Assembly (NCBI GenBank): GCA_022841665.1
Contig: JALHRB010000005.1
Span: 62,001-126,000, forward strand
Origin: Pseudolabrys sp.
GTDB taxonomy: Bacteria; Pseudomonadota; Alphaproteobacteria; Rhizobiales; Xanthobacteraceae
Reading direction: 5' to 3'
DNA length: 64,000 nt
Position 1 is the stretch's first letter; every line of letters begins with the position of its first letter. The translations under genes were made by a program, and so were the position numbers. Of the stretch, positions 15,084 through 44,615 are shown piece by piece. The notes under the pieces were generated by a model. That model made no database searches. It saw nothing but the letters and a program-made list of their open reading frames with translations, and was not told the DNA's origin.

Positions 15084-15253
15084 GGTAGCCTCCCCCTGAT
15101 GTTCAGGCGCGGTCATTGCTCGCCGCGCCATTCGGTTTGCATTTCGCCCGGCCCCGGACGAATGCGCAATCGATTGTTGCGGACCAACGCGCGCGCGATG
15201 CCCGCGCACGTTGCGCCCGGTCGGACCGCCTTTCAGACTTTACTCCGGTTTCG

Positions 15254-15265
15254 TTTGTGTGCAAA
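15254..15265. promoter_or_regulatory. Operator-like site TTTGTGTGCAAA upstream of the hydrolase gene
   Basis: An imperfect 12-bp dyad (TTTG...CAAA) 30 bases before the hydrolase ATG. It matches 11 of 12 positions with TATGTGTGCAAA at 32289-32300 and resembles the perfect palindrome TTTGTATACAAA at 17717-17728. The pattern resembles sites of FadR-like GntR regulators (TNGTNNNACNA). No clear promoter hexamers were found around this copy. Confidence 0.45.
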
Positions 15266-15295
15266 TAATTGGCGGCCGGCCGACCGGAGCAGAAG

Positions 15296-16156
15296 ATGCC
15301 GCATATTGCCGCGCGCGATGGCACTCGGTTGTTCTACGAAGAAGTAGGGCAGGGCTCCGCCGTTGTCTTTGTGCATGAATATGCCGGCGACTATCGCACC
15401 TGGGAGCCGCAGATGCGGCATTTTGCCCGCTCCCACCGCTGCGTCACCTATAGCCAGCGCGGCTATCCGCCTTCCGACGTGCCGACCGATCCCACGCGCT
15501 ACAGCCAGGACCTCGCGGTCAGCGACGTGATCGCGCTGATGGATGGGCTCAAGATCGACAAGGCGCATGTCGTGGGCCATTCGATGGGCGCGTTGACCGC
15601 GCTGCTGGTCGGCATCCGCCATCCCGGGCGCTGCATCAGCGTGACAGCGGCCGGCTGCGGCTACGGATCGAGCCCCGACCGCGCCATCGTGGAGCAGGGC
15701 CGTGCGCAGTCGCGCGAGACGGCGGCGATGTTCGAGACCGAGGATTTCAAAACGGCGGCGGCGAAATACGCCGACGGCGCCACGCGGCAGACGCACAAGA
15801 ACAAGGACCCGCGCGGCTTTGCCGAATTCGCACGCATGCTGGCCGAGCATTCGCCGGTCGGCCACGCGCTCACCATGCGCGAGGTGCAGGCCAAGCGCCC
15901 GACGCTGTGGGACCTGGAAGCCGAGTTGAAGAAGTTCTCGCCACCGCTCTTGGTGCTGGTCGGCGACGAGGACGCCTGGTGCCTGGATGCCAGCATTTAC
16001 CTCAAGCGCACCGCGCCGACGGCGGGCCTCGTGGTCATACCGCGCTCGGGGCACACCATCACCAGCGAGGAGCCGGCCGCGTTCAACGCGGCGGTTGCCG
16101 ACCTGATCGCCGCGGCCGAGGCCGGCCGCTGGATGTCGCACAGACCGCACAGCTAA
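15296..16156 (+). CDS. Alpha/beta hydrolase
   Basis: 286 aa from ATG 15296, preceded by GGAG at good spacing (an earlier in-frame start at 15269 has none). The nucleophile elbow is GHSMG with Ser96; the acid is likely in LVGDEDAW and the base His in IPRSGHT near the C-terminus, so the triad looks complete. Cytoplasmic, with no signal peptide. Members cleave esters, lactones or C-C bonds. It heads a compact unit with an SDR gene (23 bases downstream) and a DUF1989 gene, suggesting a catabolic role. Confidence 0.85.
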   Translation: MPHIAARDGTRLFYEEVGQGSAVVFVHEYAGDYRTWEPQMRHFARSHRCVTYSQRGYPPSDVPTDPTRYSQDLAVSDVIALMDGLKIDKAHVVGHSMGALTALLVGIRHPGRCISVTAAGCGYGSSPDRAIVEQGRAQSRETAAMFETEDFKTAAAKYADGATRQTHKNKDPRGFAEFARMLAEHSPVGHALTMREVQAKRPTLWDLEAELKKFSPPLLVLVGDEDAWCLDASIYLKRTAPTAGLVVIPRSGHTITSEEPAAFNAAVADLIAAAEAGRWMSHRPHS

Positions 16157-16179
16157 TCGAATTCAACGGAGGAATTGCG

Positions 16180-16998
16180 ATGGATCTCAAACTCAAGGGC
16201 AAGACCGCGGCGGTAACCGGCGGCTCGGAAGGCATCGGCAAGGGCATCGCGCTCGCGCTCGCCAAGGAAGGCGTCGACGTCGCCATCTGCGCGCGCCGCA
16301 TGGAGCCGCTCGAGGCCGCCGCCGCCGAGATCGCCAAGGCGACCGGGCGCAAGATCGTCGCCATCCCGGCCGACCTGCGCAAGGACGCCGACGCCAAGAA
16401 CTTCATCGAGCAGGCGCACAAGGCGCTCGGCCGCATCGACATCATGGTCAACAATGCCGGCTCCGCCGCCGGCGGCGTGATCGAGCACCTGACCGAGGAT
16501 GACTGGGAAAAGGGGCTGCAGCTCAAGTTCATGGGCTACGTGCGCTGCCTGCGCTACGTGCTGCCGATCATGCGCAAGCAGGGCGGCGGCCGCGTGGTCA
16601 ACCTGATCGGCAATGACGGCGTGAAGCCGTCCTACTGGGAAATCTGCCCAGGCGCGGCCAATGCCGCGGGACAGAACCTGACGCTTTCGCTCGCCGGCCA
16701 GTACGGCAAGGACAAGATCTCCTTCGTTGCGGTCAATCCGGGCCCGGTGCGCACCGAGCGCTGGGCCGGGCTGGTCGACGCCATGGCGCGTGACATGAAA
16801 ATTCCGCGCGCGGAAGCCGACACGCTGGCGCCGGCCTCGATCCCGATGGGCCGCATCGCCGAGGTCGAGGAGGTCGCCAACCTGGTCGTCATGCTGGCGT
16901 CGCCATTGATGGAAATGGTCAACGGCACCATGATCGAAATCGACGGCGGCCAGGACAAGCCGCTGATGGACCGCTTCCGCGACAAGAACCGTTCGTGA
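16180..16998 (+). CDS. SDR-family protein lacking the YxxxK catalytic motif
   Basis: 272 aa with ribosome-binding site GGAGG before ATG 16180. The Rossmann cofactor motif TGGSEGIG (13-20) and NNAG (91-94) are intact. At the place of the catalytic Tyr-x-x-x-Lys, residues 157-161 read PGAAN, so the lysine is Asn161; the nearest Tyr is 152. The usual catalytic Ser region reads LIGNDG. It may have an altered mechanism or a non-redox role. The protein at 23433-24227 shows the same replacement at the same residue numbers. Confidence 0.87.
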   Translation: MDLKLKGKTAAVTGGSEGIGKGIALALAKEGVDVAICARRMEPLEAAAAEIAKATGRKIVAIPADLRKDADAKNFIEQAHKALGRIDIMVNNAGSAAGGVIEHLTEDDWEKGLQLKFMGYVRCLRYVLPIMRKQGGGRVVNLIGNDGVKPSYWEICPGAANAAGQNLTLSLAGQYGKDKISFVAVNPGPVRTERWAGLVDAMARDMKIPRAEADTLAPASIPMGRIAEVEEVANLVVMLASPLMEMVNGTMIEIDGGQDKPLMDRFRDKNRS

Positions 16999-17010
16999 TG
17001 GAGAGGCGCG

Positions 17011-17664
17011 ATGCAAACGATCTTTGAGAAGGTGATGCCGCCGAAGACGGGTCTCGCCGTCGAGGTGAAAGTCGGGCAACGCTTCCGCGTGACCGATCTC
17101 GAAGGCAAGCAGGTGGTGGACATGGCGATCTTCAATCTCGCCAACCTGCGTGAAAAGCTGTCGACCTCCTACTCACGCACGCGCTACGTACCGGCCCCGG
17201 GGCAGCCCTACATCCCGCGCGACAAGCTGCTCGCCGGCGATACCCTGATGTCCACCATCTGCCGTCCGATGATGAAGATCATCGAGGAGACCCCCGAGAT
17301 CAAAGGTATGCACGACACGCACAACCGGATGTGCAACCGCTTCCTCTACGAAACCTTCGGCTTCGGCCCGCGCGACGGCTGTCACGAAATCATCTCCAAG
17401 GCGATCGCGCCTTACGGCCTGCTGCCGGAGGACGTGCCGGACACGATGGACCTGTTCATGAACTACCATCACGACTGCGAGCAGGGGCGCTGGCATATCG
17501 GCGAGCCGTGCTCGAAGCCGGGCGACTACATCGAGTTCGAGGCGATGATGGACGTGCTGATCGGGCTGTCGAACTGCCCGCTCGACGTGCTCAATGCGTG
17601 CAACGGCTACAACTGCACGCCGGTCAAAGTGACTGTTTTCGCAGCAGAAAGCGCGATGGCTTGA
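17011..17664 (+). CDS. DUF1989 (urea carboxylase-associated family) protein
   Basis: 217 aa, starting 12 bases after the SDR stop with GGAGAGG before the ATG. It matches the DUF1989 family: VKVGQRFRVTDLEGKQVVDM near the N-terminus, central HDTHNRMCNR, and C-terminal NACNGYNCTPVKV, with conserved Cys and His residues likely to bind metal. Relatives lie next to urea carboxylase genes, but no urea carboxylase or allophanate hydrolase is in this window, so the role here is unknown. It is the last gene of the hydrolase-SDR unit. Confidence 0.85.
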   Translation: MQTIFEKVMPPKTGLAVEVKVGQRFRVTDLEGKQVVDMAIFNLANLREKLSTSYSRTRYVPAPGQPYIPRDKLLAGDTLMSTICRPMMKIIEETPEIKGMHDTHNRMCNRFLYETFGFGPRDGCHEIISKAIAPYGLLPEDVPDTMDLFMNYHHDCEQGRWHIGEPCSKPGDYIEFEAMMDVLIGLSNCPLDVLNACNGYNCTPVKVTVFAAESAMA

Positions 17665-17688
17665 TGATACATCGGGCAGCCGGGCAAC

Positions 17689-17717
17689 TTGACAAGCAAG
17701 AGAGTCGAACAGACTAT
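17689..17717 (+). promoter_or_regulatory. Predicted sigma-70 promoter for the ABC transporter operon
   Basis: A perfect -35 TTGACA at 17689-17694, 17-base spacer, and -10-like GACTAT at 17712-17717. The operator-like palindrome TTTGTATACAAA begins at the last base of the -10 and covers the expected transcription start, a position typical of repression. The first gene starts at 17829 with a strong GGGGGAG ribosome-binding site. Confidence 0.5.
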
Positions 17718-17728
17718 TTGTATACAAA
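17717..17728. promoter_or_regulatory. Operator-like perfect palindrome TTTGTATACAAA
   Basis: A perfect 12-bp palindrome at the predicted transcription start of the ABC transporter operon. Similar sites are at 15254-15265 and 32285-32300. The TTGTATACAA core fits FadR-like GntR operators. No GntR gene is in the window, so the regulator would be encoded elsewhere. Confidence 0.55.
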
Positions 17729-17828
17729 CTATTCGCCGCGTGTGCGGCGGAACGCAACGTTCTAAAGGGTCAACAGGCGCGTATCCGCATCGGACGCGGG
17801 TCGGCCGATACGCAGGGGGAGCTCAGTC

Positions 17829-19043
17829 ATGAACACGATGCGTCCCGTACTCTACTTGGCGATGGCCGGTGCCTTTGCACTCGGCCTTATCCGACCAGCC
17901 GACGCGCAGAACACCATCAAGATCGGCGAGCTCAACAGCTACAAGATCCAGCCGCAGTTCCTCGACCCCTACAAAAAGGGCTGGGAAATGGCGGTCGACG
18001 AGGTCAACGCCAAGGGCGGCGTGCTCGGCAAGAAGCTGGAAGTGATTTCGCGCGACGACGGCGGCAACCCCGGCGACGCTGTGCGCGCCGCCGACGAACT
18101 GGTGACGCGCGAAGGCGTCAACATAATCGCCGGCACGTTCCTGTCGCATATCGGCCTCGCGGTCACCAATTTCGCCGGTCAGAAGAAAGTGTTCTTCCTC
18201 GCCGCCGAGCCGCTGACCGACAAGATCACCTGGCAGAACGGCAACCGGTACACCTTCCGCCTGCGCCCCTCGACCTACATGCAGGTGGCGATGCTGATTC
18301 CGGACGCGGCGGCCGCCAAGAAGAAGCGCTGGGCGTTGGTCTATCCGAACTTCGAATACGGCCAGTCGGCCGCGGAAAACTTCAAGGCAATGCTGAAGAA
18401 GGCGCAGCCCGACGTCGAGTTCGTCACCGAGCAAGCGCCGCCGCTCGGCAAGGTCGATGCCGGCGCGGTGGTGCAGGCGCTCGACGATGCCAAGCCGGAC
18501 GCCATCTTCAACGTGCTGTTCGGCGCCGATCTGTCGAAGCTGGTGCGCGAGGGCAACACCCGCGGCGTGTTCAAGAACCGCACGGTGGTGAGCCTGCTGA
18601 CCGGCGAACCGGAATATCTCGATCCGCTCAAGGATGAATCCCCGGTCGGCTGGATCGTCACCGGCTATCCCTGGGACAAGATCAAGACTCCGGCGCACAC
18701 CGCCTTCGTCGACGCCTACAAGAAGAAGTTCAACGATTATCCGCGGCTCGGTTCGATCGTCGGCTATGCGACCTTCAAATCGCTCGCCGCCGGCATCGCT
18801 AAGGCCGGCTCGACCGACACCGAGAAGCTGGTCGAAGCGTTCAAGGGTCTGAAGCTCGACAGCCCGTTCGGGCCGTTCGAGTACCGCGCCAGCGACCATC
18901 AGGCCACCATGGGCGCCTATGTCGGCAAGATCGCGATGGAAGGCGGCAAGGGCACCATGGTCGACTTCAAGTATGTCGACGGCAAGGACGTGCTGCCGGG
19001 CCCCGAAGAGGTGAAGAAGCTGCGGCCGGCGTCGGCGAATTAA
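17829..19043 (+). CDS. Branched-chain-amino-acid-type ABC transporter substrate-binding protein (Liv-type)
   Basis: 404 aa. The first about 26 residues are a signal peptide ending ADAQ. The mature part is a type I periplasmic binding fold: IKIGELNSYK start, AVDEVNAKGGVLGKKLEVISRDDGG, and FLSHIGLAVTNFA as the ligand-loop region. Paralogues often bind aromatic acids, amides or urea derivatives rather than amino acids, and the catabolic setting favours that. It heads a four-gene importer; a large repeat separates it from the permease gene. Confidence 0.88.
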   Translation: MNTMRPVLYLAMAGAFALGLIRPADAQNTIKIGELNSYKIQPQFLDPYKKGWEMAVDEVNAKGGVLGKKLEVISRDDGGNPGDAVRAADELVTREGVNIIAGTFLSHIGLAVTNFAGQKKVFFLAAEPLTDKITWQNGNRYTFRLRPSTYMQVAMLIPDAAAAKKKRWALVYPNFEYGQSAAENFKAMLKKAQPDVEFVTEQAPPLGKVDAGAVVQALDDAKPDAIFNVLFGADLSKLVREGNTRGVFKNRTVVSLLTGEPEYLDPLKDESPVGWIVTGYPWDKIKTPAHTAFVDAYKKKFNDYPRLGSIVGYATFKSLAAGIAKAGSTDTEKLVEAFKGLKLDSPFGPFEYRASDHQATMGAYVGKIAMEGGKGTMVDFKYVDGKDVLPGPEEVKKLRPASAN

Positions 19044-19063
19044 ACTGAGCCTCGCCCCGAACT

Positions 19064-19237
19064 CGTTTCCCTCTCCCCATACTTATGGGGAGAGGGTGGC
19101 GAGCCGCGAAAGCGGCGAGCCGGGTGAGGGGCGTCTATTCACGTACAGGCCCCTCACCCGCCTCGTTCGCTCCGCTCACTCGGCACCCTCTCCCCGCAAG
19201 CGCGGGGCGAGGGAACGAAAGCAAGGGGAGAGGGAAA
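19064..19237. repeat. Large palindromic repeat (type E) filling the binding-protein/permease gap
   Basis: Complementary arms CCCTCTCCCC/GGGGAGAGGG, GGTGAGGGGC/GCCCCTCACC and CTCTCCCCGC/GCGGGGCGAG are nested over about 170 bases, so the whole gap can fold into a long branched structure. This could limit expression of the permease and ATPase genes relative to the binding protein. Confidence 0.75.
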
Positions 19238-19259
19238 GAGTGCAAGCGGCACTTCCCAG

Positions 19260-21143
19260 ATGACCCTCAGTGCATTCCTCTTTCAGGCGCTCAACGGGCT
19301 CGCCAGCGCCTCGGGCCTGTTCTTCATCGCCGTCGGCCTGTCGCTGATCTTCGGCGTCACCCGCATCATCAATATCGCGCATGGGTCCCTCTATATGTTG
19401 GGGACCTACATCGCCTATTCGTTCGCCACGCGGATCGGCGGCGGCCTCGGCTTCTGGGGCGGCATCGTCGCGACCGCGCTCATCGTCTGTGTGCTCGGCG
19501 CCCTGATTGAAATTCTCCTGCTGCGCCGAATCTATCGCGCGCCCGAACTGTTCCAGTTGCTGGCCACTTTCGCGCTGGTGCTGGTGATCAATGACGCGAC
19601 GCTCTGGCTGTGGGGCTCGGAGGATCTGCTGGGACCGCGCGCGCCCGGCCTGCGGGGTGCTGTCGAGATTTTCGGCCGCCAGCTGCCGAGCTACGACCTC
19701 TTCCTGATCGTGATCGGGCCGGCGGTGCTGCTGGTGCTGCACTTCGCGCTGGCCAAGACGCGCTTCGGCCGGCTGGTGCGCGCGGCGACGCAGGACCGCG
19801 AGATGGTCGGCGCGCTCGGCGTCAACCAGGCAATCCTGTTCACCTCGGTGTTCGCGCTCGGCGCCGCGCTCGCCGGCCTCGGCGGCGCGCTGCAGGTGGC
19901 GCGCGAGCCCGCGACCTTGGCCACCGATCTCATCGCCATTGGCGATGCCTTCGTGGTGGTGGTGGTCGGCGGCATGGGCTCGATCACCGGCGCCTATCTG
20001 GCCGCCGTGATCATCGCCGAGGTCAAGGCACTATGCATCGCCATCGGCGTGGTCGATTTCGGCTTTATCACGGTCAACTTCTCCAAGCTCACGCTGGTCG
20101 CCGAATTCCTGGTGATGGCCGGCGTGCTGATCGCGCGGCCTTACGGGCTGCTCGGCCGGCCGCAAGGCGCGGTGCGGTCGGTCGCCGAGGCCGAGGATCC
20201 GATCCGCCCGGCCGCACCGGGCTTGAAGGCGCTGGCGGTGGCCGTGCTGGCGCTGCTCATGGGCTTGCCGCTGCTGGCGCAGGCGTCGCCCTATCTGCTC
20301 GTGCTCGGCATCGACGTGCTGATCGCCGTGATCTTCGCGACTTCCTTGCACTTCATTATGGGTCCGGGCGGCATGCATTCGTTCGGTCATGCGGCCTATT
20401 TCGGGCTCGGCGCTTACGGCGCGGCTTTGATGGTGAAATGGCTCGCCGTGCCGATGGGGCTGGGATTGGTGGCGGCGCCGCTGATCGCGCTCGCCGGCGC
20501 GCTGCTGTTCGGCTGGTTTGCCGTGCGCTTGTCCGGCGTCTACCTCGCCATGCTGACGCTTGCCTTTGCGCAGATCGTGTGGGCGGCCATGTTTCAGTGG
20601 GAAGGCTTCACCGGCGGCTCCAACGGCGTCATCGGCGTGTGGCCGCCGCCGCCGTTCAACAGCGCGGCGGTCTACTACCTGTTGACGCTGGCGATTGCCG
20701 TTATCGCCGTGCTGCTGCTGCGCCGCTTCCTGTTCGCGCCCTTCGGCTACGCCATGCGTGCGGGCCGCGACTCACCCTTGCGCGCTGAAGCCATCGGCAT
20801 CGACGTCAAGCGCGTGCATTGGCTCGCCTTCGCCATCGCCGGCGGCATCTGCGGCATCGCCGGCGGTCTGTTCGCCTTCGCCAAAGGCTCGATTTCGCCG
20901 GAGACGATCCATGTCGGCCGCTCGATCGACGGCCTGGTGATGGTACTGCTCGGCGGCATCCAGACGCTGACCGGCCCGATCGTCGGCGCCTCCGTGTTCG
21001 CCACGTTGCAGGACACGGTGATGCGCCAGACCGAATACTGGCGCGCGCTGCTCGGCCTCATCATCCTGCTGCTGGTGCTTGCCTTCCCGCAGGGCATCGT
21101 CGGCGCGGTCGCGCAGATTTTCGGCCGGAGGCGCTCGCCATGA
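19260..21143 (+). CDS. Fused LivH-LivM-type ABC transporter permease
   Basis: 627 aa combining two permeases normally encoded separately. Residues about 1-300 match LivH (FGVTRIINIAHGSLYMLG; VVGGMGSITGAYLAAV), and about 320-620 match LivM (MGPGGMHSFGHAAYFGLGAYGAAL; LLGGIQTLTGPIVGA). A Glu/Asp/Pro-rich linker (EAEDPIRPAAPG) joins the halves. It would form the whole membrane channel of the importer. The stop overlaps the next start by four bases (ATGA). The second Liv-type system in this window has separate permeases. Confidence 0.9.
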   Translation: MTLSAFLFQALNGLASASGLFFIAVGLSLIFGVTRIINIAHGSLYMLGTYIAYSFATRIGGGLGFWGGIVATALIVCVLGALIEILLLRRIYRAPELFQLLATFALVLVINDATLWLWGSEDLLGPRAPGLRGAVEIFGRQLPSYDLFLIVIGPAVLLVLHFALAKTRFGRLVRAATQDREMVGALGVNQAILFTSVFALGAALAGLGGALQVAREPATLATDLIAIGDAFVVVVVGGMGSITGAYLAAVIIAEVKALCIAIGVVDFGFITVNFSKLTLVAEFLVMAGVLIARPYGLLGRPQGAVRSVAEAEDPIRPAAPGLKALAVAVLALLMGLPLLAQASPYLLVLGIDVLIAVIFATSLHFIMGPGGMHSFGHAAYFGLGAYGAALMVKWLAVPMGLGLVAAPLIALAGALLFGWFAVRLSGVYLAMLTLAFAQIVWAAMFQWEGFTGGSNGVIGVWPPPPFNSAAVYYLLTLAIAVIAVLLLRRFLFAPFGYAMRAGRDSPLRAEAIGIDVKRVHWLAFAIAGGICGIAGGLFAFAKGSISPETIHVGRSIDGLVMVLLGGIQTLTGPIVGASVFATLQDTVMRQTEYWRALLGLIILLLVLAFPQGIVGAVAQIFGRRRSP

Positions 21144-21913
21144 GCGTGCTCGCGGTCAAGTCATTGTCGAAGTCCTTCGGCGGCGTGCACGCCGTCAACC
21201 AGGTGAGCTTCACTGTCGCGCGCGGTGAGTTTCTCGCGCTGATCGGGCCGAACGGCGCGGGCAAGTCCACCTGCTTCAACATGATCAACGGCCAGCTCGC
21301 GCCCGACTCGGGCGAGATCCTGTTCGAGGACAAAAACATCGCCGGACTCGCGCCGCGCGACATCTGGCGGCTCGGCGTCGGGCGCACCTTCCAGGTCGCC
21401 GCCACCTTCGGCTCCATGACGGTCGTCGAGAATGTGCAGATGGCGCTGATCTCGCACGGGCGCGAAACATATGGGCTGTGGCGGCCGGCCGCGTCGCTGC
21501 ACCGCGAGCGTGCGATCGACCTGCTGGCTCAGGTCGGCATGCGCGAAGCCGCCGACCGGCCGAGCCGCGAGCTCGCTTATGGCGACGTGAAACGCATCGA
21601 GCTCGCCATCGCGCTCGCCAACGAGCCGCGCCTGCTGCTGATGGACGAGCCGACCGCCGGCATGGCGCCGCGCGAGCGCAACGACCTGATCAAGCTGGTC
21701 AAGCAGCTCGTGGTCGAGCGCGGCATTTCCGTGCTGTTCACCGAGCACTCGATGGACGTGGTGTTCGCTTATGCCGACAGGATCATCGTGCTGGCGCGCG
21801 GCCGGCTGATCGCCGACGGCGACGCCGCTGCGATCCGCGAGAACCCCCAGGTGCAGGAAGTCTATTTCGGCACCGGCAAGACCTTCGCGCACGCGCAAGG
21901 GGCGGCGCCATGA
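21140..21913 (+). CDS. Liv-type ABC transporter ATP-binding protein (LivG type)
   Basis: 257 aa. Walker A GPNGAGKST at 36-44, signature-like LAYGDVKRIELA as usual for LivG, Walker B LLLMDEPTAG, and switch His in FTEHSMDVVF. It powers uptake with the LivF-type partner. The start overlaps the permease stop by four bases and the stop overlaps the next gene by four bases, so translation is coupled throughout. Confidence 0.92.
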   Translation: MSVLAVKSLSKSFGGVHAVNQVSFTVARGEFLALIGPNGAGKSTCFNMINGQLAPDSGEILFEDKNIAGLAPRDIWRLGVGRTFQVAATFGSMTVVENVQMALISHGRETYGLWRPAASLHRERAIDLLAQVGMREAADRPSRELAYGDVKRIELAIALANEPRLLLMDEPTAGMAPRERNDLIKLVKQLVVERGISVLFTEHSMDVVFAYADRIIVLARGRLIADGDAAAIRENPQVQEVYFGTGKTFAHAQGAAP

Positions 21914-22641
21914 GTCTCAAGCCGATGCTCGCGGTCGAATCCTTGAGCGCCTGGTACGGCGCCGCGCGCATTCTCTACGACCTGAACTTCCACGTCGCGC
22001 GCGGCGAGGTGGTGGCGCTGATGGGCCGCAACGGCGCCGGCAAGTCGACCACGCTGAAGGCGATCATGGGCCTGATCGCACAGCGCCAGGGCAGTGTGCA
22101 CTTCAACGGCGAGGACGTCTCGCGCCTGAAGCCGTTCGAGATCGCGCGCCGGGGCCTCGGCTTCACGCCGGAGGACCGCCGCATCTTCGTCGACCTCACG
22201 GTGATGGAGAACCTCGACATCGGCCGCCAGCCACCGCGCACGTTCCCGGACGGCGCGGCGGCGCCATCCTGGACGCCGGAAAAACTGTTCACGCTGTTTC
22301 CCAACCTTGCTGAAATGCCGAACCGCCTGGGTGGCCGCATGAGCGGCGGCGAGCAGCAGATGCTCACTGTGGCGCGCACGCTGATGGGCAATCCGCTGCT
22401 GGTGCTGCTTGACGAGCCGTCAGAGGGCGTCGCCCCGCTGATCGTAGAGCAGATGGCCAACACCATCGTCGAGCTGAAGAAGGAGGGCTTATCGATCCTG
22501 CTCTCCGAGCAGAACATCCATTTTGCCCGTCTGGTGTCCGACCGCGTCTACGTGCTGGAGAAAGGCCAGATCCACTGGCACGGCACCATGGCACAACTCG
22601 ATACCAATCAGGACGTGCAAAGAGCGTATTTGACGGTGTAA
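21910..22641 (+). CDS. Liv-type ABC transporter ATP-binding protein (LivF type)
   Basis: 243 aa from ATG 21910. Walker A GRNGAGKST at 39-47, signature MSGGEQQML, Walker B LVLLDEPSEG and switch segment LLSEQNIHFA, with Gln where many ABC ATPases have His, as is usual in LivF. It is the second ATPase of the importer and the last gene of the operon. The MarR-family gene follows 130 bases later on the same strand. Confidence 0.92.
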   Translation: MSLKPMLAVESLSAWYGAARILYDLNFHVARGEVVALMGRNGAGKSTTLKAIMGLIAQRQGSVHFNGEDVSRLKPFEIARRGLGFTPEDRRIFVDLTVMENLDIGRQPPRTFPDGAAAPSWTPEKLFTLFPNLAEMPNRLGGRMSGGEQQMLTVARTLMGNPLLVLLDEPSEGVAPLIVEQMANTIVELKKEGLSILLSEQNIHFARLVSDRVYVLEKGQIHWHGTMAQLDTNQDVQRAYLTV

Positions 22642-22771
22642 CTCTGCGGAAAGCCGGATTTTGTTGGATTTTTCGGGCCTAAGGAAGATAGGGCTTTCGC
22701 CCGGGCGGGTTCCCGGTCATGATTTCTCACCTGATGAAACTCGGGGTAGTGTTGGCGCAGTGGGGGCAGGC

Positions 22772-23236
22772 ATGCGGCGAGACAAGTTCAGCGTCGTGAC
22801 CGCCCCGACGGAGGCCGCCGAGGCCGGCCGCTATGTGCTCGACGAGCAGGTCGGCTTCCTGATCCGCGTGGCCATGCAGCGCCACACCTCGATCTTCACC
22901 TCGCGCATGATCGAGGGGCTGACGCAGACCCAGTTCGCCGCGCTGGCCAAGCTTTACGAAGTGGGGGCGTGCTCGCAGAACCACCTCGGCCGGCTGATCT
23001 ATCTCGACGCCGCCACCATCAAGGGCGTGGTCGATCGCCTGGGCGTGCGCGGCTTCGTCAGCGCGCTCAACGATCCGAACGACCGTCGCCGCCGCGCGGT
23101 GGCGCTCACCGAACAAGGCCGCGCGGTCACCGAGGCGGCGATGAAGGTCGCCGCCGAGATCACCGCCATGACGCTGACGCCGCTGACGGCGGAAGAGCAG
23201 CGCACGGTGGCGCGGCTGTTGAAGAAGCTGGGCTGA
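22772..23236 (+). CDS. MarR-family transcriptional regulator
   Basis: 154 aa from ATG 22772, with a G-rich ribosome-binding site just upstream. Winged-helix features: LTQTQFAALAKLYEVG, then the recognition helix LIYLDAATIKGVVDRLGVRGFV, the wing NDPNDRRRRAVALTEQG and a C-terminal dimer helix. Family members bind palindromes and release DNA on binding phenolic or other small effectors. Placed after a transporter operon and before catabolic genes, it probably controls one or both. A decayed relative lies at 10365-10532. Confidence 0.9.
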   Translation: MRRDKFSVVTAPTEAAEAGRYVLDEQVGFLIRVAMQRHTSIFTSRMIEGLTQTQFAALAKLYEVGACSQNHLGRLIYLDAATIKGVVDRLGVRGFVSALNDPNDRRRRAVALTEQGRAVTEAAMKVAAEITAMTLTPLTAEEQRTVARLLKKLG

Positions 23237-23255
23237 ACCTGAATTCGATTTCAGT

Positions 23256-23421
23256 TGTCATTCCGGGGCGCGGCCGCCCAAGTCGGCTTTAGCCGACTTG
23301 GGCACCATGGCTACCGATCTCGGGTAAACCCGAGATCGGTGGCCGCGAGCCCGGAATCCATAGCCCCGGTGTTGCGGAGTATGGATTCTGGGTCCATCGC
23401 TTCGCGATGTCCCGGAATGAC
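23256..23421. repeat. Composite palindromic element with two matched 28-base hairpins
   Basis: The outer ends are TGTCATTCCGGGG and TCCCGGAATGAC, as in the 12288-12394 repeat. Inside are two perfect hairpins of equal design, each with 13-base arms and a 2-base centre: 23276-23303 (arm GCCCAAGTCGGCT) and 23313-23340 (arm ACCGATCTCGGGT), nine bases apart. A further CCGGAATCCATA/TATGGATTCTGG pair follows. It lies between convergent marR and SDR genes and could terminate both. Confidence 0.8.
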
Positions 23422-23432
23422 CGGGATGCGAT

Positions 23433-24227: not shown

Positions 24228-24245
24228 TTGCCCACCCCCGCTGGC

Positions 24246-24270
24246 TTGACGCTCCTGTCGTGACCGTCAA
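24246..24270. promoter_or_regulatory. Inverted repeat TTGACG-N13-CGTCAA between divergent genes
   Basis: Six-base arms separated by 13 bases, centred between the SDR and MBL-fold genes, with an inner GTC-GT-GAC dyad. It could be a regulator site for both promoters; TTGACG may also serve as a -35. No convincing -10 was found at standard spacing. Confidence 0.3.
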
Positions 24271-24323
24271 GTATCTTTGATCGATCCGTCGATGGCCAGA
24301 ACGATTGCAGCAAGGAGATGCCG

Positions 24324-25202: not shown

Positions 25203-26032
25203 CCTTTCGGCCACCATGCGGTTTGTGCGGCGAGCTCGGGCCAGCCGATGGCGCGGCGGGCGCGTTGTGCCGCTTCGTCGGCCGGCAGTGAAGCGTCCCA
25301 TGCGGCGCCGGTGAAGCGCTGGCCGGTGACGCCGTTCGAAGCCTCCGACATTAGCCAGCGGATCGGCGGGCCCATGATCTCCGGCCGCAGCATCTGCTCG
25401 CGCCGCCAGCCGGACCCATCGGCGATGAACGGTGTGTCGGTCGGCCCGCCCGGCACCAGCACATTGACGGTGATGCCGGTGTCCTTGAGCTGCTCGGCCC
25501 ACACGGCCGACATCGATTCCAGCGCCGACTTGGTGGCGCCATAGGGCAGCACGCGCAGCATGGTGCGGAAGCTGGTGGTGTTGTTGACGACGCGGCCCCA
25601 GCCTTGCTTGCGCATCGGCGCCAGCACGGCGCGCATCAGCAGCAGCGGCGCGCGCACATTGACGGCGAAGAAGCGGTCCCAGATTTCCGGCGTCAGCTCC
25701 TCGATGGTCGGGATGTTCTTCTCGGCGTCGTCACGCAGGGAACTCGGGCCGATGCTGGCATTGTTGATCAGGCCTTCGATGCGGCCGAAATGGGCGATGG
25801 TCTTGGCGACGGCTTCGGCGCATTGCGCTTCCGCCGCGAGGTCGGCCGGCATGGGAAGGAAACGATCGCGATGGCCTGCGACGGCCGCGGACAGCCTTTC
25901 CAGCGCGCCTTCGTCGCGGTCCACCGCCGCGACCGCATGGCCGGCCTCCAAGAGGGCGAGGGTCATGACCGTGCCAAGGCCGCCGGCGGCTCCGGTCAGC
26001 AGCACCACGCGGCTTTTGTCATTGGCGGCCAT
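25199..26032 (-). CDS. SDR-family oxidoreductase (classical active site)
   Basis: 277 aa from ATG 26032, with GGAGG six bases upstream (the frame opens at 26053). It has TGAAGGLG for cofactor, INNAS, and an intact YGATK catalytic motif preceded by NNTTS, so it should be an active NAD(P)-dependent dehydrogenase/reductase, unlike the SDRs at 16180 and 23433. It is the last gene of the molybdenum-hydroxylase operon, 36 bases after the second large subunit, and may oxidise the hydroxylated product. Confidence 0.87.
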   Translation of the reverse strand: MAANDKSRVVLLTGAAGGLGTVMTLALLEAGHAVAAVDRDEGALERLSAAVAGHRDRFLPMPADLAAEAQCAEAVAKTIAHFGRIEGLINNASIGPSSLRDDAEKNIPTIEELTPEIWDRFFAVNVRAPLLLMRAVLAPMRKQGWGRVVNNTTSFRTMLRVLPYGATKSALESMSAVWAEQLKDTGITVNVLVPGGPTDTPFIADGSGWRREQMLRPEIMGPPIRWLMSEASNGVTGQRFTGAAWDASLPADEAAQRARRAIGWPELAAQTAWWPKG

Positions 26033-26068
26033 GCGCGCCTCCCTGCCGGCCAAGCCTAGCAGGACAGC

Positions 26069-28294
26069 TCAGCGCCCGGCCATCAGGGCCTTCAGCCGCT
26101 GCGGGGTGACCGGCAGGCGTGTCACCGCGCCGGGGCGCTGGAGTGCGTCGTCGATGGCCGAGGCGATCACCGCACCGACCGGGTTGGCGCCGCCTTCGCC
26201 CGCGCCCTTGAGGCCGAGCGGATTGAGCGGGCTGGGCGCGTCTTCCGATATGAGCACTGAAATATCGGGCACTTCGCGCGCGGTCGGCATCAGGTAGTCG
26301 GCGAAGGTGACCGACAGTGGCTCGCCGCTCTCGTCATAGGCGAACTCCTCGAACAGCGCGCCGCCGATGCCCTGCGCCAGCCCGCCGGCGATCTGGCCTT
26401 CCACCAGCTTCGGGTTCACCGCTTTGCCGATGTCGTAGGCGATGACGTAGCGCTCGATGGTGACGCCGCCGGTCTCGGCATCGATCTTCACCGCCGCGAC
26501 ATGCACGCCGTAAGGATAGACCATGTGCGCGGCCTCGAAGGTGTCCTCGGCGCTCAAGCCCTCCGACACCTGCTGCGCCAGCGCCGCCAGCGTCATGCTC
26601 GGCCCGCCGCCGCTGCGCACGATCTCGCCGCCGACGATGTCGAGCGCGCCAGCGTTCGTCTGCATCAGCGGCGCGGCCGCCTGCAAGGCCTTTTCGCGCA
26701 GCTTGACGGCGGCGAGCCGCGTGGCCTCGCCGCACATGACGGTGACGCGCGAGGCAAAGGCGCCCATGCCTTTGGCGATGCGGTCGGTTTGGCCGTGCAC
26801 CACGTTGATGTCCTGGTAATCGACGCCGAGCGTGTCGGCGCAGATTTGCGCGATCACGGTCTCGACGCCCTGGCCGATGGAGGCGACGCCGGTGACCACC
26901 TCGACGCGGCCGTCGCGCTTGACGTCGATGCGCACGGTGTCGAAGGGACCGAGCCCGCTCTTCTCCACGAACATGCCGACGCCGCCGCCGACCTTCTCGC
27001 CTTTGGCGCGGCGCATCTTCAGCTCGGCTTGGAGTTTGTGCCAGCCGGCCGCCTGCAAGGCCTTGTCGAGCAGCAGCGCGTAGTCGCCGGAGTCGTAGAC
27101 GATGTGCGTGCCGAGCGTCTCGAGGCCGAGATTGTACGGCATCGCGCTTTTGCCGATCAGGTTGCGGCGGCGGACCTCGACCGTGTCGATGCCGACTTTC
27201 GCCGCGATGGCATCCATCAGGCGCTCGCGCACGAAAGTCGATTCATAGCGGCCCGGCGCGCGGTAGGTGCCGGCCGGCGTCTTGTGGGTGAGGCGAATGT
27301 GGCCGGCGGCGCGATAGGCCGGCACGCGGTAGGGGCCGGGCAGCATGGCGGCGGCGAGGTCCGGCACGGTGGCGGCATGCGTGCGCATGTAGGCGCCGTT
27401 GTCGTGGAAGAATTCATCGTCGATGCCGAGGATACGGCCTTGCGCGTCGATGGCGGCGCGGACGCGGTGCACCTGGTCGCGCGAGTGATTGGCGGAGATC
27501 AAATGCTCGCGGCGGTCCTCGATCCATTTGATCGGCCGCTTGAATTTGAGCGCGGCGGCGCAGACCAGCACGTCCTCCGGATAGAGCTCGCCGCGGATGC
27601 CGAAGCCGCCGCCGACATGGCCTTCGTAGAGCTGCACCGAATTGATGTCGCGGCCGAGCATCTTCGCGATCTGGTCACGATTCCAGTGCGGCACCTTGGC
27701 GGCGCCGTGCATTTCCAGCACGTCGCGCGCTTCGTCGTAGCGGGCGACGGCGCCGCGCGTCTCCATCGGTACGCCGGAGTGGCGGCCGACCGCGAGTTCC
27801 ACTTTGACGACCGCGTGCGCATCGCGGAAGGCCGCTTCAATGTCGCCGTAGGCTTTGCGCACCACGCCGGGCTCGGTGACGGCAAGCGCCAGCGGCGCGA
27901 TGTCGAGCGCAACCAGGTCGGCGGCGTCTTCGGCGAGATAGGGATCGTCGGCAAAGACGACGGCGACCGGTTCGCCGACATAGCGCACGACGCCGTCGGC
28001 CAGCACCGGCTGCTGGTAGGGCGTGAGCCCTTCGATGCGGGTGAGGCGGAAGCCGATGCGCGGGATGTGCGCGACATCCTTGTAAGTCCACACCGCATGC
28101 ACGCCGGGCAGCGCCAGCGCGGCGGCGGCATCGACCGAAATGATGTTCCCGTGCGCCACCGGCGAGCGTACCACGCGCATGTGCCACTGGCCGGGGAAAC
28201 TGACGTCCGCCGCGAAGCGCCCTTGCCCTGTCAGCAGCGGCCGGTCTTCCAGGCGCGGGACGGAACGGCCGATGAATTTCTGTTTCTCAGGCAT
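26069..28294 (-). CDS. Molybdenum hydroxylase large subunit (CoxL/xanthine-dehydrogenase-like), copy 2
   Basis: 741 aa holding the molybdopterin-cytosine-dinucleotide site. Family landmarks: IGRSVPRLEDRPLLTGQGRF at the N-terminus, HVGGGFGIR, TYRAPGRYES in the active-site loop region, and GAGEGG at 697-702 with the presumed catalytic Glu700. The CO-dehydrogenase loop (AYRCSFR) is absent, so this is not a CO oxidiser. Family role: hydroxylation of N-heterocycles, aldehydes or aromatic CoA esters using water. It follows the Fe-S subunit gene across a repeat. Confidence 0.9.
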   Translation of the reverse strand: MPEKQKFIGRSVPRLEDRPLLTGQGRFAADVSFPGQWHMRVVRSPVAHGNIISVDAAAALALPGVHAVWTYKDVAHIPRIGFRLTRIEGLTPYQQPVLADGVVRYVGEPVAVVFADDPYLAEDAADLVALDIAPLALAVTEPGVVRKAYGDIEAAFRDAHAVVKVELAVGRHSGVPMETRGAVARYDEARDVLEMHGAAKVPHWNRDQIAKMLGRDINSVQLYEGHVGGGFGIRGELYPEDVLVCAAALKFKRPIKWIEDRREHLISANHSRDQVHRVRAAIDAQGRILGIDDEFFHDNGAYMRTHAATVPDLAAAMLPGPYRVPAYRAAGHIRLTHKTPAGTYRAPGRYESTFVRERLMDAIAAKVGIDTVEVRRRNLIGKSAMPYNLGLETLGTHIVYDSGDYALLLDKALQAAGWHKLQAELKMRRAKGEKVGGGVGMFVEKSGLGPFDTVRIDVKRDGRVEVVTGVASIGQGVETVIAQICADTLGVDYQDINVVHGQTDRIAKGMGAFASRVTVMCGEATRLAAVKLREKALQAAAPLMQTNAGALDIVGGEIVRSGGGPSMTLAALAQQVSEGLSAEDTFEAAHMVYPYGVHVAAVKIDAETGGVTIERYVIAYDIGKAVNPKLVEGQIAGGLAQGIGGALFEEFAYDESGEPLSVTFADYLMPTAREVPDISVLISEDAPSPLNPLGLKGAGEGGANPVGAVIASAIDDALQRPGAVTRLPVTPQRLKALMAGR

Positions 28295-28318
28295 CGCGAG
28301 CGTCGATCTATACTCCGC

Positions 28319-28373
28319 TCATTCCCGCGCAAGCGGGAATCCAGCGCTGGGTCCCCGCTTTCGCGGGGACGAG
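28319..28373. repeat. Palindromic repeat, type A (copy 2), between Fe-S and second large-subunit genes
   Basis: Two hairpins, TTCCCGCGCAAGCGGGAA and GTCCCCGCTTTCGCGGGGAC, joined by ATCCAGCGCTGG. Same design as 28890-28984 and 7817-7915, but shorter. It occupies most of the 90-base gap between two genes of one operon. Confidence 0.75.
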
Positions 28374-28384
28374 CGGTTGAAGCC

Positions 28385-28861
28385 TCACTTCCGCATCTCC
28401 TTGGCCGCGGCGCGCACGGCCTTGATGATGTTCTGGTAGCCGGTGCAGCGGCACAGGTTCGACGACAGCACGTCGATGAGGTCGTCGTCGCTGATGTCGG
28501 GTTCGCGCTCGAGCACGCCCACCGCCAGCATCAGGAAGCCCGGCGTGCAGAAGCCGCATTGCAGGCCGTGGTGATCCATGAAGGCCTGTTGCATTGGATG
28601 CAGCGTGTCGCCCTTGGCGAGGCCTTCCACTGTGCGGATCTGCTTGCCCGCCGCCTGCGCGGCGAACATCAGGCAGGAGCGCACCGGCTCGCCGTCCACG
28701 ATCACGGTGCAGGCGCCGCAGACGCCGTGCTCGCAGCCGATATGCGTGCCGGTCTGCCCGCAGTCCTCGCGGATGGCGTCGGCCAGCGTGCGGCGCGCCT
28801 CGACCTTGATGGCGTGGTCGCGGCCGTTGATGGTGAGGGTGATAGACGATTTTTCAGTCAT
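28385..28861 (-). CDS. (2Fe-2S)-binding small subunit of molybdenum hydroxylase (CoxS-like)
   Basis: 158 aa from ATG 28861. The plant-type ferredoxin domain carries Cys43, Cys48, Cys51 and Cys63; the second domain carries Cys102, Cys105, Cys137 and Cys139 (CGFC...CRC), so both 2Fe-2S clusters are complete. It passes electrons from the molybdenum centre to the FAD subunit. It is the only small subunit between two large-subunit genes, with a type A repeat on each side. Confidence 0.93.
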   Translation of the reverse strand: MTEKSSITLTINGRDHAIKVEARRTLADAIREDCGQTGTHIGCEHGVCGACTVIVDGEPVRSCLMFAAQAAGKQIRTVEGLAKGDTLHPMQQAFMDHHGLQCGFCTPGFLMLAVGVLEREPDISDDDLIDVLSSNLCRCTGYQNIIKAVRAAAKEMRK

Positions 28862-28889
28862 CTTGGTCCGCCGTAGCCGCATGTACTGC

Positions 28890-28984
28890 TGTCATGCCCG
28901 CGAAGGCGGGCATCCAGTAAACGTAGGCGCTTGTCGTAACGAGAGCGCGGTGCGTACTGGGTCCCCGCCTTCGCGGGGACGACG
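28890..28984. repeat. Palindromic repeat, type A (copy 3), between first large-subunit and Fe-S genes
   Basis: Hairpins TGCCCGCGAAGGCGGGCA and GTCCCCGCCTTCGCGGGGAC, with CCAGTA...TACTGG as an outer inverted pair. It separates the first large-subunit gene from the Fe-S subunit gene. Confidence 0.78.
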
Positions 28985-29002
28985 TCTGAAAATGTTGCGG
29001 GC

Positions 29003-31345
29003 TCATGCGGCCCCCGCCTTGCGCAGCGCCGCACGCACGCGCTGCGGCGTCGCCGGCATCTCGTCGATGACGATGTCGAAGGGACTGAGCGCGTCGTTGA
29101 TGGCGTTCACGATCGCCGCCGGCGCGCCGATGCAGCCGCCTTCGCCCAGCCCCTTGGCCTTGGTGATCGATTCCGTGCTCGGCGTCTCGATGTGGTGCAG
29201 CTCGATCTCCGGCACCTCGCGCGCCGTCGGCGGCATGTATTCGGCGAGCGTCGCGGTCAACGGGTTGCCGCTGTCGTCGTAGACGATCTCTTCCAAGAGC
29301 GCGTTGCCGATGCCCTGCGCGATGCCGCCGTGCACCTGGCCGTCGGCGATCATGGGATTGATGATGCGGCCGGCGTCCTCGGCGACGAGAAATTTCTCGA
29401 TTCGTGTACGGCCGGTCTCGACGTCCACCTCGACGATGGCGACATGGCAGGCGTTCGAAAACGTGCCGGGCGGGTCGTAGGTGCCGCTCTCGCTCAGGCC
29501 GGGCTCGATTTCGCCCTTGAAGCGGTGCGTCTGCGTGTAGGCTTCGCGCGCCATCTTGGCGATGGATACCGTGCGGTCGGTACCGGCCACCTTGGCCTGG
29601 CCGTCCTCCAGCACGATGTCGTCCGCTGCGGCTTCCAGCATGGTGCTGGCGATCTTGATCAGCTTGGCGCGCACTTTGCGCGCCGCGATCAGCGTGGCGC
29701 CGCCGGAGATCACCAGCGAGCGGCTGGCGAAGGTGCCCCAACCGTAAGGCGCCGTGTCGGTGTCGCCGTGAATGACCTTGATCTTGTGCGGCTCGACGCC
29801 GAGCTCGTCGGCGATGATCTGCGCCAGCGTGGTGCGCAAGCCCTGGCCGTGCGGCGAGGAGCCGATGCGCGCCTCGATGAAGCCGGAGGGATCGACGCTG
29901 ACATGCACCGTCTCCCAGCCGGGCGTGATCGCCATGCCGCGCGCGGTAAAGGCCGGGCTGCCGTAGCCGGTGCGCTCGGAGAACGTCGCAAAGCCGATGC
30001 CGAGGTAGCGGCCTTGCTTGCGCGCTTCCGCCTGCCGCTTGCGGAAGGCGGGAAGGGCGGCATGCTCGACCGCCATCTCCAGCGTCTGTTTGTAGCTCGC
30101 CTCGTCGAACTTGAGGCCGGCGGCGGAGACATAGGGGAATGTCCCGATCAGGTTCTTGCGGCGGATGTCGACCGGCTCCAGGCCGAAGGCGCGCGCCGCC
30201 TTGTCCATCAATCTTTCCAGCGCGAAGGTAATGACTGGCCGCGATACGCCGCGATAGGCGGCCATGGTGCAGGTGTTGGTGATGGCGCCGCGCGCGCGGC
30301 ACTCATACTGGCGAAAATCGTAAGGCCCCGGCATTTCCGCCATCGCCATCAGCGGCTCGACGCCGGAGGTGGTGGGAAAGCAGGAATAGGCGCCGATGTT
30401 GGACAGCACGTCGGCCTTGAGCGCGAGCAGGCGGGCGTCCTTGTCGAAGGCGCCTTCCAGCGCGATGGTCTGGTCGCGCGAATGAAACGAGGCGATCAGG
30501 TTTTCGCGCCGGTCCTCGGTCCAGGCGACCGACGATTTGAGCTTGCGCGCCAGCCACACCAGCACGACGTATTCGGCGCAGAGCGACATCTTCTGGCCGA
30601 AGCCGCCGCCGACGTCGGGCGCGATCACGCGCAGGTCCGATTCCGGCATGCCGAGCACGTCGGCGATCGCGGTGCGCATCAGATGCGGCATCTGCGTGGT
30701 GCAGGTGAGCGTCACGCGGCCGGTTGCCGCGTCGTAGGCGGCATGGGCGGCGCGCGCTTCCATCGGCGTGGCGTTCTGCCGGCGCGAACGCGCGTCGACC
30801 TTGACGATCTTGTGCGCGCCCGCCCAGACGCCGTCGAAGCCGTCGGTCTTGATGCGGCCTTCGAGGATGACATTGCCGGGCGCTTCGGCGTGGATTTGCG
30901 GCGCGCCGGACGCGACCGCGGCGCGCGCATCGACCACCGGTGTGGCGTCGCCGATGACGAGCTCGACAGCGTCGGCGATGTCCTCGGCCTCTTCCTCGCT
31001 CGCCGCCACCACCGCGGCGACCGCCTCGCCGACGAAGCGCACTTCGCCGTCGGCCAAAATCTGCTGCGGCACCGGCCGGTAGCTGAACTTGTGCAGCATG
31101 GGCAGGATCGGCTTCACGCCTTTGAGATCGGTGGCCGTAATCATGGTCGCGCCTTGCGGCGCCTTGACGCTTTCGATCTTGCCGGCGGCGGACGGGCTGC
31201 GCAGGAAGCGCACCCAGTGCGCGGCGGGCAGGTCGGCGGTGAAGCGGCCCTGGCCGGTGACGAGCGCGGGGTCTTCCAGACGGCGGATGGCGCGGCCGAC
31301 CCACTTCAGGCCGGAACCTTTGGTGTGCTGTTCGCGCGCGCTCAT
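29003..31345 (-). CDS. Molybdenum hydroxylase large subunit (CoxL/xanthine-dehydrogenase-like), copy 1
   Basis: 780 aa. Landmarks: VGRAIRRLEDPALVTGQGRF, DVGGGFGQK, AAYRGVSRP at the active-site loop, and GLGEGG at 732-737 with presumed catalytic Glu735. All molybdopterin-contact motifs look intact and the CO-dehydrogenase AYRCSFR loop is absent. The protein is clearly different from the 741-aa copy, so this is not a recent duplication. The start overlaps the FAD-subunit stop by four bases. Substrate unknown; N-heteroaromatics are plausible. Confidence 0.9.
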   Translation of the reverse strand: MSAREQHTKGSGLKWVGRAIRRLEDPALVTGQGRFTADLPAAHWVRFLRSPSAAGKIESVKAPQGATMITATDLKGVKPILPMLHKFSYRPVPQQILADGEVRFVGEAVAAVVAASEEEAEDIADAVELVIGDATPVVDARAAVASGAPQIHAEAPGNVILEGRIKTDGFDGVWAGAHKIVKVDARSRRQNATPMEARAAHAAYDAATGRVTLTCTTQMPHLMRTAIADVLGMPESDLRVIAPDVGGGFGQKMSLCAEYVVLVWLARKLKSSVAWTEDRRENLIASFHSRDQTIALEGAFDKDARLLALKADVLSNIGAYSCFPTTSGVEPLMAMAEMPGPYDFRQYECRARGAITNTCTMAAYRGVSRPVITFALERLMDKAARAFGLEPVDIRRKNLIGTFPYVSAAGLKFDEASYKQTLEMAVEHAALPAFRKRQAEARKQGRYLGIGFATFSERTGYGSPAFTARGMAITPGWETVHVSVDPSGFIEARIGSSPHGQGLRTTLAQIIADELGVEPHKIKVIHGDTDTAPYGWGTFASRSLVISGGATLIAARKVRAKLIKIASTMLEAAADDIVLEDGQAKVAGTDRTVSIAKMAREAYTQTHRFKGEIEPGLSESGTYDPPGTFSNACHVAIVEVDVETGRTRIEKFLVAEDAGRIINPMIADGQVHGGIAQGIGNALLEEIVYDDSGNPLTATLAEYMPPTAREVPEIELHHIETPSTESITKAKGLGEGGCIGAPAAIVNAINDALSPFDIVIDEMPATPQRVRAALRKAGAA

Positions 31346-32199
31346 CTGTTGGAATGCTCCAGCGCCCGGCGCACCACGGCGCGCACCAGGTCGCGGCGAT
31401 ACTCGGCGCTGGTCTGATGATCCTCCATCGCCTCGACAGCGTTTGCCGCCGCTTCGGCGGCGGCGCGGAAGGCTTTATCGCCGGGCGGCTGGCCGTTGAG
31501 CGCGGCTTCGGCTTGCGCGATGCGCCTGGGGAACGGCTCGGCGCCGCCGACGCCGACGCGCGCTTCGGCGATCTTGCCGCCTTGCAGCCGGTAGGTGACC
31601 AGCGCCGCGCTCATGGCGAAGTCGCCGGCGCGGCGGCTGAACTCGTTGAAGCCGAACTTGGTATCGGGCGAAAGCAGCGGCAGGCGCACCTCCGCCAGCA
31701 GCTCGTCCTCCGCCAGTGCGGTCGACATGATGCCGGCAAAGAATTCGCGCGCCGGGATCGGCCGCTCGCCGCGCGTGCTGCGGGCGACGATGGTGGCGTC
31801 GAGCGTCGCCGCGGTGAGGCACCATTCGGAGGAGGGGTCGGCATGCGCGAGGCTGCCGCAGAAGGTGCCGCGCATGCGGATCGGGTAATGCGCGATGTGG
31901 CGCGCGACAAAAGTCAGCAGCGCGCCGAGCGGATTGCCGACCACCGACTTGTGAAACGCGCCGTGGCGCACGCACGCGCCGATCGAAAGCGTCGTGCCGT
32001 CGCTGGCGATCCGGTCGAGGCCGTCGATCTCGTTGATGTCGACCAGATGTGCGGGTTTGGCCAGCCGGAACGCCATAATCGGCACCAGGCTCTGCCCCCC
32101 GGCGAGCACGCGGCCGTCTTGCGGTGCGACTTGCGCGAGGATCTTCACCGCCTCGTCGAGGGTCTTCGGCACGTGGCGGATGAACGGCGCGGGTTTCAT
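31342..32199 (-). CDS. FAD-binding medium subunit of molybdenum hydroxylase (CoxM-like)
   Basis: 285 aa from ATG 32199 (TTG and GTG starts lie up to four codons upstream). It has the FAD-binding PF00941 domain with VLAGGQSLVPIMAFRLAKP as first flavin loop and IRMRGTFCGSLAHADPSSEW as second, then the CO-dehydrogenase flavoprotein C-terminal domain. It takes electrons from the Fe-S subunit to an acceptor. First gene of the operon FAD - large - Fe-S - large - SDR; its promoter overlaps an operator-like site. Confidence 0.92.
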   Translation of the reverse strand: MKPAPFIRHVPKTLDEAVKILAQVAPQDGRVLAGGQSLVPIMAFRLAKPAHLVDINEIDGLDRIASDGTTLSIGACVRHGAFHKSVVGNPLGALLTFVARHIAHYPIRMRGTFCGSLAHADPSSEWCLTAATLDATIVARSTRGERPIPAREFFAGIMSTALAEDELLAEVRLPLLSPDTKFGFNEFSRRAGDFAMSAALVTYRLQGGKIAEARVGVGGAEPFPRRIAQAEAALNGQPPGDKAFRAAAEAAANAVEAMEDHQTSAEYRRDLVRAVVRRALEHSNR

Positions 32200-32284
32200 G
32201 GCTTGCACCAATAGCGCGGTCGGAAAGCAGCCGGATCATGCCGTGTCGGGGTCGCGGGCGACAGCCGCACCCCGCGGGCATGAG

Positions 32285-32300
32285 TTTGTATGTGTGCAAA
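32285..32300. promoter_or_regulatory. Operator-like site upstream of the molybdenum-hydroxylase operon
   Basis: TTTGTATGTGTGCAAA, a 16-base TTTG...CAAA dyad lying directly after the -10 of the predicted promoter. It carries TATGTGTGCAAA, 11/12 identical to the site at 15254-15265, and shares TTTGTAT with 17717-17728. Its place over the transcription start suggests repression. Confidence 0.5.
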
Positions 32301-32327
32301 CGATAGCGTCCGCGCCCGGATTGTCAA
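32300..32327 (-). promoter_or_regulatory. Predicted sigma-70 promoter of the molybdenum-hydroxylase operon
   Basis: Read on the minus strand: -35 TTGACA (32327-32322), 16-base spacer, -10 TATCGT (32305-32300). Transcription would start near 32293, about 95 bases before the FAD-subunit start codon and inside the operator-like site. The rest of the 195-base gap to the next gene shows nothing else. Confidence 0.55.
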
Positions 32328-41316: not shown

Positions 41317-41332
41317 GCAACGCTCCTCATTG

Positions 41333-44479: not shown

Positions 44480-44498
44480 TGCATCGTCCCCGGCGGCT

Positions 44499-44587: not shown

Positions 44588-44615
44588 GTGTTAAACGTTG
44601 TGCAGCGCGCCGCAA

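Follow-up and report, generated by a model that had tools for sequence, protein, structure and literature searches.

The 64,000-nucleotide stretch of Pseudolabrys sp. DNA analyzed here (referred to as the window; contig JALHRB010000005.1) carries a catabolic cluster of three transcription units, each preceded by an exact or one-mismatch copy of the palindromic 12-mer pattern TTTGYRYRCAAA, together with a gene for a MarR-family protein that is a candidate regulator of all three. The first unit, on the plus strand, encodes an alpha/beta hydrolase (15296–16156; Pfam Abhydrolase_1, with an esterase, 5egn, as the best PDB chain), a short-chain dehydrogenase (SDR1, 16180–16998; assigned by Pfam, with relatives found by search) and a DUF1989 protein (17011–17664; Pfam PF09347). 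On the same strand lies a branched-chain-type ATP-binding cassette importer (17829–22641), assigned by Pfam and comprising LivK (17829–19043), a fused LivHM (19260–21143), LivG (21140–21913) and LivF (21910–22641). The last gene of this importer unit (22772–23236, plus strand) encodes the 154-residue regulator (Pfam MarR). The third unit, on the minus strand, is a four-gene molybdenum-hydroxylase (cox) operon (26069–32199; Pfam), made up of CoxM (31342–32199), CoxL_b (29003–31345; best PDB chain quinoline 2-oxidoreductase, 1t3q), CoxS (28385–28870) and CoxL_a (26069–28294). Divergent from the hydrolase unit is a gene for the NMT1-type binding protein of a second importer (14106–15083, minus strand; Pfam NMT1, start codon inferred). 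These assignments agree with the three units named in a first-pass annotation of this DNA, namely hydrolase-SDR-DUF1989, a Liv-type importer and a four-gene molybdenum hydroxylase.

Two of the three sites noted in that annotation are exact copies of the pattern. Operator 1 (TTTGTGTGCAAA, 15254–15265, plus strand) lies in the divergent region between the NMT1-type gene (minus) and the hydrolase unit (plus), and operator 2 (TTTGTATACAAA, 17717–17728, plus strand) precedes the importer unit. At the third, formerly placed at 32285, the 12-mer is a one-mismatch copy at 32289–32300, reading TATGTGTGCAAA on the plus strand and TTTGCACACATA on the minus strand, and a 16-base form (TTTGTATGTGTGCAAA) is also present at 32285–32300. 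The minus-strand 12-mer is the core kept at the CoxM promoter of relatives, where it reads TTTGCGCACATA, TTTGCATACATA or TTAGCATACAAG; the 16-base form was set aside as the operator, the 12-mer being what relatives conserve. In three relatives (L121, L124 and L131), the 12-mer at the LivK promoter gives way to a TTTG-N8-CAAA form like that at site 3.

Promoter boxes were read from the sequence, and the TTGACA promoters claimed earlier for sites 2 and 3 could be located. The importer unit (promoter 17689–17717, plus strand) has TTGACA at 17689–17694, a 17-bp spacer and GACTAT at 17712–17717; the cox operon (promoter 32300–32327, minus strand) has TTGACA at 32327–32322, a 16-bp spacer and TATCGT at 32305–32300. 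These two sites are built alike, the first base of the 12-mer being the last base of the −10 box. Site 1 is without TTGACA, and TTTACT (15239–15244) with AATAAT (15264–15269) is a weak guess at the hydrolase promoter (15239–15269, plus strand), which would place operator 1 in its spacer; CTTTAC and TATAAT-like elements recur at this promoter in part of the relatives. An Rfam search of 11000–34000 returned no families.

In the window, the two exact copies (15254 and 17717) compare with 0.05 expected, and none of 100 shuffles reached two. Across the 3.85-Mb genome the exact pattern occurs at two places, both in the catabolic cluster, and a reversed-pattern control gave none; one-mismatch copies number 42 versus 25 for the control. 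The non-chance features of the motif are its location and conservation, not its genome-wide count.

Conservation was scored in 62 loci, the window plus 61 from relatives (60 regions from SDR1-holding genomes and L046), by comparing the first-pass pattern, left unchanged, with the 160 bp upstream of each gene and keeping the best 12-mer. Of 391 genomes in the family, 94 have an SDR1 match at E 1e-60, with a best match only 43–46% identical in 9 of them; in the genus, 40 of the 43 genomes searched have SDR1. Hydrolase, LivK and CoxM promoters were the targets, and eight others from the same loci (SDR1, LivHM, LivG, LivF, MarR, CoxL_a, CoxS and CoxL_b) were the controls; rows for a cyclase (1 of 3), abcATPase_NMT (0 of 2) and the NMT1-type binding protein were omitted from the control count. 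The NMT1-type gene has a match of at least 11/12 within 160 bp upstream in 18 of 24 MarR-holding loci, mostly in the same divergent region, and is possibly also under operator 1. Loci were classed as MarR-less when no match was obtained at E 1e-20 (19 of the 62, 7 of them with a scorable target promoter, 11 promoters in total). G558 and G467 were classed as MarR-holding, though their matches are only 51–54% identical, and neither gives a target promoter.

At MarR-holding loci, a match of at least 10/12 was found at 102 of 112 target promoters versus 8 of 297 controls, which bears out the predicted conservation upstream of orthologous operons. With the window included, hydrolase promoters reached at least 11/12 in 37 of 40 loci and at least 10/12 in all 40; the corresponding counts were 27 and 32 of 40 for LivK and 6 and 30 of 32 for CoxM. 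The level of 11/12 was reached at one of the 297 control promoters and in 20 of 6150 shuffled upstream regions. Complementarity extends to the bases three positions outside the 12-mer in 32 of 33 distinct hydrolase sites, 26 of 28 CoxM sites and 3 of 22 LivK sites, and at LivK this rarely complementary outer position coincides with the −10 box. TTGACA (at least 5/6) stands upstream in 29 of the 30 CoxM sites scored, and 28–29 bases before the operator in 17 of the 27 LivK sites scored, the window being included in both sets. At the LivK promoter of L130, the site centre is gone and the outer arms, GGACTATTT and AAATAGTCC, are kept.

The motif was then compared with the presence of the MarR gene, which stands after LivF in the window and in relatives keeping both, and is linked in the window and in relatives to the catabolic operons presumed to be under its control. 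In MarR-less genomes, only 1 of 11 target promoters reaches 11/12 and 3 of 11 reach 10/12; against MarR-holding promoters, Fisher p values are 7.7e-4 (at least 11) and 5.5e-6 (at least 10), the rows being related. Four of these seven MarR-less genomes (G488, G519, G547 and G605) are 69 to 90% complete. The match search found no MarR gene in G665, G695, G687, G422 or G584 either. In MarR-less G399, LivF is closely followed by CoxL_a, and the genome has no exact site; its cox promoter, TTGACT...CGCTAGCATGCCCC, compared with TTGACT...CGTTAGCATACAAG in MarR-holding relatives such as L116, keeps the boxes TTGACT and TAGCAT and has lost the half site ACAAG. A moved operon that has the same operator is seen in G514. 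Here the cox operon (0.85 Mb) and a hydrolase-SDR1-MarR unit (2.08 Mb), with no importer between SDR1 and MarR, lie 1.23 Mb apart on one contig. The cox promoter carries an exact operator, TTTGTATGCAAA, within ATATCGTTTGTATGCAAACGATAT, its 12-mer beginning 39 bp upstream of the coxM ATG, and the hydrolase promoter carries an exact TTTGTATACAAA.

A more distant set was made up of 40 author-chosen regions, each spanning at most 20 kb around a MarR homologue (43 to 73% identical), from 39 genomes of the order. These regions hold 13 exact sites in 758,473 bp, versus 0.38 expected from the 104 sites of the same 39 genomes (11 versus 0.37 without the orthologous L046), and a first-order simulation gave an expectation of 0.6. 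Outside L046, 7 of the 11 exact sites are no farther than 150 bp from the point at which CoxS, CoxM or MarR was mapped to start. A second MarR protein of the same type in G461 (C1:2928722; L273 2023), 53% identical, is likewise encoded about 0.95 kb from an exact site, so the operator may be shared among paralogues.

The operator also marks a further gene in relatives. In G426, G641, G542 and G514, a nadC-like gene with phnN behind it is preceded by an exact copy that begins 58 to 71 bp upstream, and the upstream match in G617 and G566 is 11/12. The G426 protein scored 323.7 bits against TIGR00078 (cut-off 198.4). The nadC-like gene was found in 9 of the 16 genomes searched and not in the genome of the window itself. 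Only two CoxM promoters fall below 10/12, those of G566 and G589, and both have the nadC-like gene before coxM; the lack of a separate site at coxM in G566 is accounted for by the 11/12 match before the upstream nadC-like gene. The nadC-like gene with phnN and the operator (L256 1887–3465, L258, L259, L260 and L293 9887) is divergent, in four genomes, from a TAXI-type TRAP binding protein.

With nine of 16 first-look candidates scored, the genome of the window holds one match to the MarR protein at E 1e-20. By sequence, the best PDB relatives are 2nnn (E 6e-35) and BpsR (6pcp, 1.3e-22). The predicted structure has a MarR fold (mean predicted local distance difference test score 83.7), for which the structural ranking was 2nnn first, BpsR (6pco) second and PcaV third. 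The closest solved relative, 2nnn (49% identical over the structural match), comes from Pseudomonas aeruginosa and is a probable regulator, to which the PDB record assigns no function. Pfam, the PDB relatives and the predicted fold agree on a winged-helix protein of the NicR/BpsR type, and a palindrome over promoter boxes, as read here from the sequence alone, fits such a repressor. Judging by a title, PicR of Alcaligenes faecalis reportedly belongs to the MarR family and represses a cluster for degrading picolinic acid. BpsR of Bordetella, a NicR homologue (PDB 6pco, 6pcp), shares the fold, the structural match to 6pco_A showing 39% identity; it is described as repressing nicotinic acid catabolism, with 6-hydroxynicotinate as inducer (PMC6837509). 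Three of its four described ligand contacts (PMC6837509) are kept in the window protein, Y15, R26 and H32 as Y21, R32 and H38, with H23 replaced by F29. The set Y, F, R, H of the window protein occurs in 57 of 70 homologues, and Y, R and H occur together in 68 of 70. NicR of Pseudomonas putida, of MarR type, is described as repressing the nicC and nicX operons (PMC10269826), and the 6-hydroxynicotinate contacts are stated in the BpsR paper not to be conserved in it (PMC6837509). Pfam or NCBIfam scans recognized none of nicC, nicX, nicD, nicF and nicE among those window proteins that they covered, and for this reason the window protein is not called NicR. The accessible portions of published work around NicR, BpsR, PicR, MarR and Pseudolabrys contained no operator of this sequence, and six 12-mers of the motif, used as text queries, led to no apparent bacterial operator paper, as judged by titles and the starts of abstracts.

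The computed sites, their conservation, the gene linkage, the co-occurrence with the MarR gene and the fold indicate that the three sites are very probably operators of one NicR/BpsR-type MarR repressor encoded by 22772–23236, the last gene of the importer operon. The earlier proposal that a single regulator joins the three units is supported by the controlled conservation at orthologous promoters and by the relocated G514 operon with the same operator. Binding, repression, autoregulation and response to a ligand would then proceed as follows. Without inducer, a MarR dimer would sit on the palindrome. At sites 2 and 3 it would cover the start point and the last part of the −10 box, at site 1 it would lie in the spacer, and it would thereby bar RNA polymerase from all three promoters, including that of the MarR gene itself; we infer repression because the operator overlaps the −10 box. 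A substrate or early intermediate, probably an N-heteroaromatic carboxylate, would bind between the helices, the repressor would leave the DNA, and the importer, hydroxylase and hydrolase/dehydrogenase genes would be induced together.

A pyridine-carboxylate-like inducer is a guess, hinted at by the BpsR-like pocket, by quinoline 2-oxidoreductase being nearest to CoxL_b among solved chains and by nadC in the regulon of some relatives. It is possible, though rather doubtful, that the cluster encodes a molybdenum-hydroxylase pathway not described before, which acts on a pyridine or quinoline carboxylate and is controlled by a NicR-like repressor, with a regulon that in relatives includes phnN and the nadC-like phosphoribosyltransferase; a single signal would then couple ring breakdown to capture for nicotinamide adenine dinucleotide. 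A regulator, operator and regulon are hereby proposed for a catabolic cluster whose SDR gene is widespread in the genus; the inducer is narrowed to a small class of compounds, and the operator also locates further targets, such as the nadC-like gene in relatives.

Several observations weigh against control by this MarR protein. The motif is not clearly above chance genome-wide, where scaling of the window expectation would give about three exact sites; the strong enrichment predicted by the first-pass annotation was not seen, and what held of that prediction is that both exact copies fall inside the cluster. LivK is without a site of at least 11/12 in 13 of 40 MarR-holding loci, which is explained only in part, and the two promoters scored in MarR-holding G758 reach only 10/12 and 9/12. 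MarR-less G547 has an 11/12 match at the hydrolase, in an assembly that is 69% complete. Further upstream of coxM, G589 yields only a weak 11/12 match, inside the 5′ end of a long open reading frame. Exact sites fall in 11 of the 40 MarR-homologue regions and in none of the other 29, and the ligand pocket agrees with that of BpsR at only three of four contacts. The threshold of 10/12 matters for CoxM and was adopted after 11/12 gave 6 of 32, and the relatives are not independent, so the counts are not independent trials.

Other readers of the sites were also considered. The palindrome TTTGTATACAAA is akin to the operators of FadR-type GntR regulators, and a FadR-like GntR repressor encoded elsewhere was the regulator favored by the first-pass annotation, which saw none in the window. 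GntR genes are indeed absent from it, but the importer unit ends in the MarR-family gene, which the motif tracks instead. The genome has four GntR-family (PF00392) matches, none of them on the contig that holds its only exact sites; with no GntR gene linked to the sites, unlike what such a regulator would lead one to expect, this explanation appears very improbable. A regulator that is neither GntR nor this MarR could be unlinked, reading the sites and merely sharing the pathway: DNA conservation alone cannot name a protein, some exact sites are not near a MarR gene, and the 29 MarR-homologue regions without one would fit. We consider this unlikely, since the motif recurs at distant MarR homologues with other neighbors (in L082 it starts 48 bp before the mapped MarR match) and is rarer where MarR is missing.

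The identity of the regulator could be correct and its sign wrong, as some MarR proteins activate, BhbR2 reportedly among them (PMC12016517). An activator role is nonetheless quite improbable, given that the sites overlap the −10 box or spacer, described as a usual position for repression (PMC12016517), and that BpsR (PMC6837509) and NicR (PMC10269826) are described as repressors. Least credible is that the palindrome is a promoter element or chance and not an operator at all. It does touch promoter boxes at sites 2 and 3, and its genome-wide frequency is near chance, but at CoxM the 12-mer lies 21, 23, 27 or, once, 32 bases from the −35 box, depending on the lineage; in G399 the boxes of the cox promoter remain and the palindrome is gone; and a match of at least 11/12 is absent from 296 of the 297 control promoters.

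Of 42 annotated loci, the window and L134 are the only ones in which a DUF1989 gene separates SDR1 from the importer, and the gene is perhaps a lineage-specific insert. Elsewhere in the window, a second catabolic stretch (40504–50466) encodes aspartate dehydrogenase-like, amidohydrolase and enoyl-CoA hydratase proteins and another branched-chain-type importer. At 52902–53935, a gene for a Fic/DOC-family protein adjoins one for a Cro-type helix-turn-helix protein, perhaps forming a toxin-antitoxin pair.

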